This document shows, in pieces, positions 3,519-10,857 of a DNA stretch of 64,000 nt. Position numbers and translations under genes: made by a program. The notes under the pieces were generated by a model that was not told where the DNA came from, did not search any database, and saw nothing but the letters and a program-made list of their open reading frames with translations. Origin of the DNA: Thermococcus sp. AM4 (GTDB lineage Archaea; Methanobacteriota_B; Thermococci; Thermococcales; Thermococcaceae). The stretch's first letter is position 1. The number at the start of each line of letters is the position of its first letter. The stretch is from NCBI RefSeq assembly GCF_000151205.2, contig NC_016051.1, forward strand, positions 620,001 through 684,000, read 5' to 3'.

Positions 3519-3980
3519 ATGCGGGTGCTCTGGGAGAGGGAAGTTCCAGCTAAAGACATAAGGGTCTCACCGCGGCCGGTGTGGAAGTGTAAAGCCTGCC
3601 CGATGTACGGTAAAAGGCCGAGCTGTCCCCCGCACGTACCCGATTGGAGGGAAGCGAGGGACTGGATAGGAGCCTTCGAGCGCGCCATCCTCGTGAAGTT
3701 CGAGATCGACATGAAGGATTTCGAGAACGAGAAGAGAAGGGCCATCCTCTGGCTTCTCGACAGAGAGCGGGAGCTCTTCCGGCAGGGAAAGCTATACGCG
3801 ATGGCCCTCTTCCCCGGAAACTGCAACCTCTGCCCGGATTGTCCCTTCGAGAGGGGCGAACCCTGCAGGATGCCCGAGAAGGTCAGGCCCAGCGTAGACG
3901 CCATCGGCGTGGAGCTGAGCTCCCTCGTCGAGATAGACTTCTCGGAGAGCGTTCTCTACGGCCTGATAATGGTTGAGTAG
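3519..3980 (+). CDS. DUF2284 Cys-rich metal-binding protein
   Basis: A 153-residue protein with the DUF2284 pattern. An N-terminal cluster CKACPMYGKRPSCPPH (residues 24-39) and a C-terminal cluster CNLCPDCPFERGEPC give eight or more cysteines, suggesting one or two Fe-S centres. Function is unknown in the family; an electron-transfer or corrinoid/metal role has been guessed from other contexts. TATA-like TTAAAAAG about 28 nt before the ATG implies a leaderless start. The next gene begins 8 bp after the stop, so the three genes to 5420 likely form one operon. Whether the Fe-S protein works with the CARF-like/PIN pair is unknown. Confidence 0.8.
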   Translation: MRVLWEREVPAKDIRVSPRPVWKCKACPMYGKRPSCPPHVPDWREARDWIGAFERAILVKFEIDMKDFENEKRRAILWLLDRERELFRQGKLYAMALFPGNCNLCPDCPFERGEPCRMPEKVRPSVDAIGVELSSLVEIDFSESVLYGLIMVE

Positions 3981-3988
3981 GTGGTGTT

Positions 3989-4465
3989 ATGACCGTCCAC
4001 GTGGCTTTGCTCGGAAGAACGCCCTGGGCCCTCGTGAACACCTACTACGCCTCGGTCATGAGGGGTGAGCGGCCGAGGGCCGTTTACGTTGTGACGGAGA
4101 GGAGGTACTCTCGCCACCTCCCGAAGATAGTCGAGGCCCTGAGGGAGATCTCAAGGGCTTACGGCTTCGAGCCGGCGATAGAGACGAGGGTTATAGAGGA
4201 CGACGACTTCCTGATGGCGGAGAGGGTTTTCCGCGAGCTCTTCTCAAGGATAAACGGCGAAGACGTGATCCTCAACATGACCTCCGGAAGGAAGGCCCTC
4301 GTCGCGGCGGCGATAGTCCAGAGCAGAAACTGCAACCTGAGGGAGATCCTCTACATGGCGCTGCTCGACGTGGCCTTTCCGAACAGGCCCTACATGATGC
4401 TGCCGCTTCACATGCAGAGGCTCAAGAACTTCCTCGGTGATGGCGATGATCGAGGTCGTGATTGA
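3989..4465 (+). CDS. Stand-alone CARF-like (Rossmann) ligand-sensor protein
   Basis: A 158-residue protein with the order of elements seen in CARF domains. Strand 1 (VHVALLGRTP, residues 3-12) ends in a GxxP loop. Helices and strands alternate through the middle. A strand-loop-helix ILNMTSGRKALVAAAI (94-109) takes the place of the CARF signature NxTGGTK, here T98-S-G-R-K102. No HTH or nuclease domain is attached. The ribosome site GGTGGTGTT precedes ATG 3989. Its 3' end overlaps the following PIN-like gene by 20 bp, implying translational coupling. CARF domains bind cyclic oligoadenylates in type III CRISPR immunity, but no cas gene or array is visible here. Alternatives are a ring-nuclease-like enzyme or a sensor of another nucleotide. 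Confidence 0.6.
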   Translation: MTVHVALLGRTPWALVNTYYASVMRGERPRAVYVVTERRYSRHLPKIVEALREISRAYGFEPAIETRVIEDDDFLMAERVFRELFSRINGEDVILNMTSGRKALVAAAIVQSRNCNLREILYMALLDVAFPNRPYMMLPLHMQRLKNFLGDGDDRGRD

Positions 4466-5420
4466 GAAGCCCGAGCTCCAGATACTGATAAACCTCCTTC
4501 AGAAAAACGGGATCACCGTGAGCTATCCCCTTTACGAGATACCCCTCTTCTCCGCCAGAGAGAGCGAAAAAGGCTACACCCTCAGCGTCCTCGCGGGGAG
4601 GCACGACTTCAGGGGCAGGCACCCGGAGCTTCCCACGTACTCGGACTTCTACGAAACGTTCATCTCGTCGGGCATCGTGACATACGACAACATAGAGGAG
4701 TTCGCCCACATGCTCGAGGTGTACCGCGTTCTGCGCAAGGGCGTTTCCTTCGCCCCCGACACGAACCTCTTCTACCACCGCTTCATATCCTCCTACCGGC
4801 CGCTCGATGGTTACCAGATCGTCGTTGCAGAGGACGTCAAGAACGAGATCGAGGCCGCGATGAACTATAAGTACAGGCACCAGCAGCTCATCGAGATCTC
4901 GCGCGAGGTGAAGAACGGCCACCTCCTCCGGGAGCTCTCCAACAGAAGGACCAAGAAGGCCAGAAAAGCTGCCTACATAGCCCTCAAGGAGTTCGAGGCC
5001 CTGAGGGACAGGATAATAATCGCCGAGAGGTACGGGAGCGGCCACAACAACGACGAGGTTATCGTGAAGACCCTCAAGCACTTCGACGAGATGAGTCCCT
5101 CTCTGCTCGTCTTCCTGACGGCGGATCTGGCGATAACGGACGTTGCCCGGATGGAGGGCCTCGAGTACTTCCTCTTCGAATACCCCACGGGGCCCCTTGG
5201 AACGCACGAGGTCTCGGCGTACCAGCTGAGGACGCTCATCTTCAACCTGGCGGCTGTTTTTGGCGTTATAGACCTCAACGGGACGATAGTGTACGGCGAG
5301 TTTGGTGGAAAGAGGAAGCTCAACGAGCTCAAGCTCCTGTTCCGGGATGATGAGCTTTTCCAGAGATTCCTGTTCCACCTGAACCTCTGCAGGAAACTCG
5401 AGGCGATAATGAGAGGGTGA
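4446..5420 (+). CDS. PIN-like ribonuclease coupled to CARF-like gene
   Basis: A 324-residue protein. From about residue 100 it shows PIN-type acidic positions in order: D105 in APDTNLFYH, E134 in VKNEIEAA, D203 in NNDEVIVKTL and D227 in LTADLAITD. Such positions bind Mg2+/Mn2+ in PIN RNases. The first 95 residues are an N-terminal extension not typical of VapC toxins, and the protein is more than twice VapC size. The start ATG 4446 is chosen for GGTGAT 4-5 nt upstream; it overlaps the CARF-like gene by 20 bp. Taken together the pair looks like a sensor and its RNase effector on separate chains. PIN assignment is by motif only. Confidence 0.62.
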   Translation: MIEVVIEKPELQILINLLQKNGITVSYPLYEIPLFSARESEKGYTLSVLAGRHDFRGRHPELPTYSDFYETFISSGIVTYDNIEEFAHMLEVYRVLRKGVSFAPDTNLFYHRFISSYRPLDGYQIVVAEDVKNEIEAAMNYKYRHQQLIEISREVKNGHLLRELSNRRTKKARKAAYIALKEFEALRDRIIIAERYGSGHNNDEVIVKTLKHFDEMSPSLLVFLTADLAITDVARMEGLEYFLFEYPTGPLGTHEVSAYQLRTLIFNLAAVFGVIDLNGTIVYGEFGGKRKLNELKLLFRDDELFQRFLFHLNLCRKLEAIMRG

Positions 5421-9799: not shown

Positions 9800-10297
9800 T
9801 CACCGGGCTTCCTCGTTTTCGGTCTTCCGCGAGGGCGTCATCTTGATGACGTAATCGGCGGCGTTCTGGAGGGCAACGGAAAAGCCGGGCTCAACGCCTA
9901 TAACCACGGTCTCCTTTCCGCGCCTCTTCGCCTCTATTATGAGGGGCAGAAAATCCGCGTCGCGGGAGGCGAGGGCTATGACGTCCACGTCGGCGGTGTA
10001 GATCATCTCCATCGTCTCGATCGCGACCCTGACGTCGGTGTCGCCGGCAACGATGACCGGCTCGAGCCCCTGGTTCACTATCGCCTCAACGAGCCCCTGG
10101 GGGGCGTACTGGTTCAGTATCACCTTGGCTATCCTGACGCTCCCGATCCTGTTGAGGGCCTCGATTATGTCCTCGAGCTTTATGCCGAACTCCTTTCGCA
10201 GTATGTTGGGGCCGTCTATGATGAGGCCGATCCTCTTCTTGGGCTGTTCCTCCTCCTTCTCGCCCCTCTTGAGTATCCTGAAGAGGCTATTCCTCAT
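9800..10297 (-). CDS. NYN-domain (PIN-like) putative RNase, intact acidic site
   Basis: A 165-residue NYN protein of the archaeal TIGR00288/DUF88 type. Acidic positions expected in the active site are present: IDGPN (about 28-32), VAGDTDVR (about 80) and SRDADFLPL (about 110). NYN domains share the PIN/FLAP nuclease fold and several are RNases. The start ATG 10297 is preceded by GGTGAGGAG and overlaps the upstream paralog by 11 bp. The pair is translationally coupled and followed by an ion exchanger. No RNA target is known. Confidence 0.82.
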
Positions 10298-10796
10298 CCT
10301 CCTCACCGCCGAGAACTATGGCGTAGTCTGCCGCGTGCTTCAGAGCAACCGAAAAGCCGGGCTCAACGCCTATAACAACCGTTTCCTTGCCCTTCTCCTT
10401 GGCCTTGAGTATGACGGGCAGGAACTCAGCGTTCCTCGTGGCTATGGCTATGACGTCGATGTGGGGGTTGTAGATCTCCTTCATCGCCTCGACAGCTAAC
10501 TTAACTCCCGTCTCGCCCGAGACTATCATCGGCTCGAAACCCTGATTTGAAACGGCCTCTATGAGCCCCTGAGGGGCGTACTGGTTGAGAACGACCTTCG
10601 CAACGCGGATGTCCCCGATCTCGGAGAGGACTTCCACGAGATCCTCGAGCTTGACGCCGAGTTCTTTCCTCAGCATGTTGGGGCCGTCTATCAGGAGGGC
10701 TATTCTCTTGCCGCGCGATATCTTGCTCTTCATCTGGCCGATGATCCTTATGCCGCTCTTCGTCATCGATACTATCTTCTCCCACTTGCCGCTCAT
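10287..10796 (-). CDS. NYN-domain paralog with degenerate acidic residues
   Basis: A 169-residue paralog of the downstream NYN gene, alignable throughout ([32 protein letters not shown]). IDGPN is kept, but GDTDVR is GETGVK and SRDADF is TRNAEF, so at least three acidic positions are lost or altered. It may be a non-catalytic partner forming a heteromer with the intact copy, or it may have a different metal-independent role. An N-terminal extension of about 25 residues is basic. ATG 10796 has GGTG upstream and a TATA-like TTTTTAACT further up. It is the first gene of the unit and lies just downstream of tmcA. Confidence 0.8.
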
Positions 10797-10857
10797 GGGG
10801 AACACCGGGGACACCGCTGTTACACGGGGAATAGAGGGAAGGGAGTTAAAAAGCTAT

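Follow-up and report, generated by a model that had tools for sequence, protein, structure and literature searches.

The 64-kb stretch of DNA analyzed here (the window) contains two overlapping plus-strand genes that encode a CARF protein (P0001) and a PIN nuclease partner (P0002). Both open reading frames (ORFs) lie exactly where the original prediction had placed them and share 20 bp, as it had claimed. An alternative GTG start at position 4437 would extend P0002 to 327 amino acids. The CARF gene starts 8 bp behind the stop codon of a gene for a predicted metal-binding protein (DUF2284). Comparison with three relatives yielded dN/dS values of ~0.04–0.16 for both genes, which indicates that they are under purifying selection. 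An antisense ORF (positions 4422–5378; 318 amino acids) was discarded because homologues and dN/dS favor the plus-strand genes. No CRISPR-like array was found within the window, in agreement with the earlier remark that no CRISPR locus was in sight. Elsewhere in the window, two similar, overlapping genes on the minus strand (9800–10306 and 10287–10814; 168 and 175 amino acids) have an NYN/PIN-like nuclease-fold appearance as judged by eye.

Table 1 Features of the CARF-PIN locus, in window coordinates
Feature	Position	Strand	Basis or remark
DUF2284 (predicted metal-binding protein), constant upstream neighbor	3519..3980	+	PF10050, E 9.7e-32
CARF gene P0001, 158 aa, clade CARF_m1	3989..4465	+	PADLOC, AF2, Foldseek
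CARF motif I, L8-G9-R10-T11-P12-W13	4010..4027	+	Homologue alignment
CARF motif II, T98-S99-G100-R101-K102	4280..4294	+	Homologue alignment
PIN nuclease partner P0002, 324 aa	4446..5420	+	PF13638, PDLC01973, AF2
N-terminal linker domain of P0002, ~residues 1-50	4446..4595	+	Aligns with linker of fused protein
PIN acid D105 (DTN motif)	4758..4760	+	Invariant
PIN acid E134	4845..4847	+	Invariant
PIN acid D203	5052..5054	+	Invariant
PIN acid D227 (TAD motif)	5124..5126	+	Invariant
C-terminal extension of P0002, residues 246-324	5181..5417	+	Colinear with fused CARF-PIN (hhalign, alignment)

The upstream gene encodes a CARF protein

P0001 matches the PADLOC CARF_m1 model PDLC01971 with an E-value of 2.7e-73 and, in a phmmer search, the ring nuclease Sso2081 (E 0.0043). 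The AlphaFold2 (AF2) model of the protein has a pLDDT of 82.6, with residues 121–158 poorly modeled. A structural search with this model returned 28 PDB matches at E ≤ 1e-3; every one is a CARF protein. Can2, Csa3, Csm6, SiRe_0806, Card1, and Sso2081 were among the Foldseek matches. Judged by profile and predicted structure, P0001 is a true CARF protein with the CARF Rossmann fold and belongs to clade CARF_m1, which bears out the CARF-like sensor originally predicted. Matches to TAL effectors in a PDB profile search were discarded; their single repeats fall below significance and the sum arises from tandem repetition.

The predicted motif M97-T98-S99-G100-R101-K102 is present in P0001. T98, G100, and K102 are invariant in the 67 distinct homologues, S99 occurs in 65 of them, and R101 in 66. 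Motif II corresponds to residues of Sso2081 that contact the ligand: in that enzyme G104-R105-K106 binds cA4, and G9-T10-S11 positions the scissile phosphate (PMC10018336). The equivalent of the latter site has diverged. L8, G9, R10, and W13 of motif I are invariant in all 67 Thermococcales split homologues, which have GR[S/T] at this position (67/67) and thus lack the Crn1-type GTS, whereas 16 of 17 single-chain fusions described below have GTS. Because GRK is kept while R10 and W13 replace GTS, it is fair to infer from these alignments that the Thermococcales split CARFs may have changed ligand or lost ring cleavage. With motif I altered, the CARF might also have no nucleotide ligand at all, or might serve as an inhibitor of the PIN protein.

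The downstream gene encodes a predicted PIN nuclease

P0002 matches PF13638 (PIN_4) with an E-value of 1.4e-3, which is below the Pfam cut-off, and the C-terminal half of the CARF_PIN model PDLC01973 with an E-value of 1.2e-17. Its AF2 model (pLDDT 92) adopts a predicted PIN fold, and the top five PDB matches of the model are all chains of SiRe_0806, a CARF-PIN protein. The N-terminal linker domain is modeled as strands and helices. The four ordered PIN acids that had been picked out from the sequence (D105, E134, D203, and D227) show no substitution in any of the 68 distinct PIN homologues. They also hold in an alignment extended to haloarchaeal and fused relatives, where just 12 columns stay invariant across all three groups (both split forms and the fusions); conservation of this degree is more than chance. 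phmmer matches of P0002 to fluorescent proteins (E ≥ 0.13) were regarded as noise. The PIN protein of the Thermococcales split family has no relative in the viral contigs searched.

Single-chain fusions join the same parts in the same order

We surveyed 94 Thermococcales genomes, 18 of which encode a longer ORF with an N-terminal match to P0001. Seventeen of these fusions are full-length (~480–530 amino acids), and one copy is shortened to 340 amino acids (G032:C1:1589144-1590061); remnants of a fused gene are found at G058:C31:9352-9699. In ten fusions phmmer also matches P0002 to the C-terminal half, and the remaining full-length fusions are linked to P0002 by alignment and profile comparison. 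Profile alignment with hhalign connects the CARF family with the fusion N-terminus (99.5%, E 7.9e-23) and the PIN family with the C-terminus (96.7%, E 4.2e-10). Taken together, CARF, linker, and PIN align with the fusion over its whole length and in the same order. PADLOC places both halves in CARF_m1, and both retrieve SiRe_0806. Several fusion neighborhoods contain cas genes (Cmr1, Cas10, and Cas3-like ORFs, named from their translations). In the window the two domains are not joined in one chain. Because single-chain fusions with this domain order occur close to type III cas genes in other Thermococcales, the proposal that the two genes form a split sensor/RNase module is well supported by sequence and model comparison.

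The pair is conserved in genomes without detectable Cas10

Cas10 was counted in 66 good non-Pyrococcus genomes. The pair is present in 65 of these 66, with the count made on the PIN partner, which is interrupted in one (G076). In that genome ~1 kb of inserted DNA separates the parts of the PIN gene (L091:4974-6913). Cas10 is detected in 23 of the 65 pair-bearing genomes and goes undetected in 42, of which 10 also lack Cas1. The 42 include the complete genome from which the window is taken: none of three models (TIGR02577, PF22335, and TIGR02578) detects Cas10 there, the sole TIGR02578 match covering model positions 4–77 of 753 (74 positions) in a 213-amino-acid frame, and the single Cas1 lies ~150 kb outside the window. 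The searches could have overlooked a divergent Cas10 or another cyclase in genomes scored as negative. The fused form tracks Cas10 (18/18; Fisher p 5e-10, a value that overstates independence because the genomes are related); the split form does not. The pair is thus kept without a need for type III CRISPR; a response to cyclic oligoadenylate from a distant type III source, which the original prediction offered as one possibility, is not supported as its normal role.

The pair is missing in Pyrococcus and in genome G034, and no trace of it was found beside DUF2284 in those examined. A phylum-wide search found the split PIN confined to the window's own family. Defense genes are not usually conserved as widely as this pair is in Thermococcus, and its near-universal presence could point to a housekeeping role.

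The CARF gene lies directly behind the DUF2284 gene in 77 of 80 genomes; the exceptions are two genomes with no usable DUF2284 match on the contig and genome G045. The outer neighbors differ between lineages. CARF and PIN genes adjoin, and usually overlap, in all examined loci where both are intact. DUF2284 occurs in 91 of the 94 genomes, some of them without the pair, and is therefore a neighbor rather than a proven partner. Its candidacy as an obligate third component was discarded, as it is present in Pyrococcus and G034 with no trace of the pair adjoining it. In 23 genomes the gap between DUF2284 and CARF widens to ~470 bp. The seven gaps that were translated each contain an ORF of ~150 amino acids (for example L080:4565-5017; shortened in G070, L076), and the one profiled has four hydrophobic segments.

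A second split form resides on haloarchaeal plasmids

Independent searches of haloarchaeal plasmids with PIN and CARF recovered the same 12 records. In the 11 records opened, the CARF and PIN genes overlap by 1 or 4 nt, and a search of these 11 plasmids for Cas10 found none. Several pairs sit in defense islands, with neighbors that include BREX PglX, a BREX ATP-binding protein, DrmE, UvrD helicases with PD-(D/E)XK nucleases, and csa3. On Haloferax alexandrinus plasmid pBNX82-4, the annotation places csa3, which encodes a CARF regulator, immediately upstream of the pair (L168:5816-6466). The haloarchaeal CARFs likewise have no GTS motif and match PADLOC model PDLC01972; the haloarchaeal PIN has no relative in the phages searched. 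A tree resolves three groups (Thermococcales split, haloarchaeal split, and fused), although it is unrooted and the ancestral form, split or fused, cannot be read from it. The haloarchaeal group lies nearer the fused proteins, and the two split forms may therefore represent separate events.

A proposed ligand-gated nuclease and its alternatives

We consider it reasonably likely that the two genes encode a ligand-gated PIN nuclease that operates independently of type III CRISPR. The CARF protein would probably form a dimer whose subunit interface binds a small nucleotide or oligonucleotide. Its partner, in complex with it, would supply the rest of a CARF_m1-PIN protein, namely the linker domain, the PIN active site, and the C-terminal extension. 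Ligand binding should turn on RNA cutting by the PIN domain, which may lead to growth arrest or defense. Cas10 goes undetected in most carriers, including the genome of the window, which makes a type III cyclic oligoadenylate an improbable signal. The other suggestion of the original prediction, a different nucleotide signal with a putative CRISPR-independent role, fits these data. One candidate, by analogy with the CARF regulator RtcR, is RNA with 2',3'-cyclic-phosphate ends. Cyclic di-AMP from a DacZ-type cyclase is possible but undistinguished, since the cyclase domain occurs in 90 of 94 genomes. It was rejected as a pair-specific source because it does not track the pair and is found in Pyrococcus too. 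No mCpol, an alternative cyclase, was found in the window's genome.

The layout of the locus, in which a small upstream gene overlaps one for a PIN nuclease, recalls toxin-antitoxin modules such as VapBC-like operons. The PIN protein would then be a constitutive RNase that the CARF restrains directly or by destroying an activating nucleotide, until stress frees it. The CARF does resemble Sso2081, a stand-alone ring nuclease, but the GTS important for ring cleavage by that enzyme is missing, no antitoxin family in Pfam or NCBIfam matches the CARF, and the fused homologues are built as sensor-effectors. We regard this arrangement as unlikely. Still less probable is an ordinary accessory effector of type III CRISPR acting in trans, which would bind cyclic oligoadenylate from a Cas10 encoded elsewhere or occasionally present. 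The conserved GRK, the determination of the SiRe_0806 structure with cA4, and the Cas10-bearing carriers agree with such an effector; the larger number of carriers without Cas10, some without Cas1 as well, a motif I unlike that of the fused form, and a fixed site behind DUF2284 rather than in a cas locus do not. Core-genome distribution and purifying selection would suit a domesticated pair with a housekeeping task in the maturation or decay of cellular RNA, in which the CARF serves as a subunit that is structural or binds RNA ends. This seems the most doubtful of the three, since examined Pyrococcus genomes and G034 show no trace of the pair next to DUF2284 and the haloarchaeal cousins reside on plasmids amid defense genes.

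The ligand-gated nuclease that we favor can be extended to a fuller proposal that has, in our estimate, an even chance of being correct. The pair would be a near-universal component of the Thermococcus core genome that responds to a cellular or infection-induced nucleotide made by something other than Cas10; the defense islands of haloarchaeal plasmids would hold a second split version of it. The role for which CARF sensors are chiefly known is the detection of cyclic oligoadenylates made by Cas10. If our reading is true, the pair would represent a CARF signaling pathway that works without type III CRISPR. Since the pair is present in nearly all Thermococcus-type genomes, the majority of which have no Cas10, the existence of other CARF ligands can be tested directly.

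Comparison with known systems

A 2014 paper (PMC4012209) anticipated both CARF-PIN proteins and functions of CARF domains beyond CRISPR, and the CARF halves are already catalogued, since both stand-alone groups are PADLOC models. The two-gene CARF-PIN pair appears to be undescribed: the searchable papers, a scope that does not include the 2020 CARF classification, yielded no account of it. Among the stand-alone CARF_m1--CARF models (PDLC01971 and PDLC01972), P0001 matches the former and the haloarchaeal partners the latter; the PIN partner has no match to any stand-alone PADLOC model.

The closest relative in design is CARF_m1--CARF_PIN (PDLC01973), which agrees with the pair in its parts and their order (CARF, linker, PIN, and C-terminal extension), in the four acids, and in the GRK of motif II. 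These fusions are one chain and, in 16 of 17 cases, have GTS in motif I, in contrast to both split groups. SiRe_0806 from Sulfolobus islandicus (PDB 9jxw and 9jxx), for which the literature searched yielded no publication, is the closest PDB structure to the PIN half by fold and one of the CARF proteins retrieved with the CARF half. It differs from the pair in being a single, cA4-bound chain, and identity in the structural alignments is ~13% for PIN and 18–21% for CARF. The Crn1 ring nuclease Sso2081 is, like P0001, a small stand-alone CARF with GRK in motif II; P0001 differs from it in having GR[S/T] in place of GTS, an invariant W13, and an adjoining PIN gene. RtcR provides a precedent for a CARF that answers a ligand not made by Cas10, namely tRNA fragments with 2',3'-cyclic phosphate ends (PMC7790460), but it is a sigma-54 activator that regulates RNA repair rather than a partner of a nuclease.
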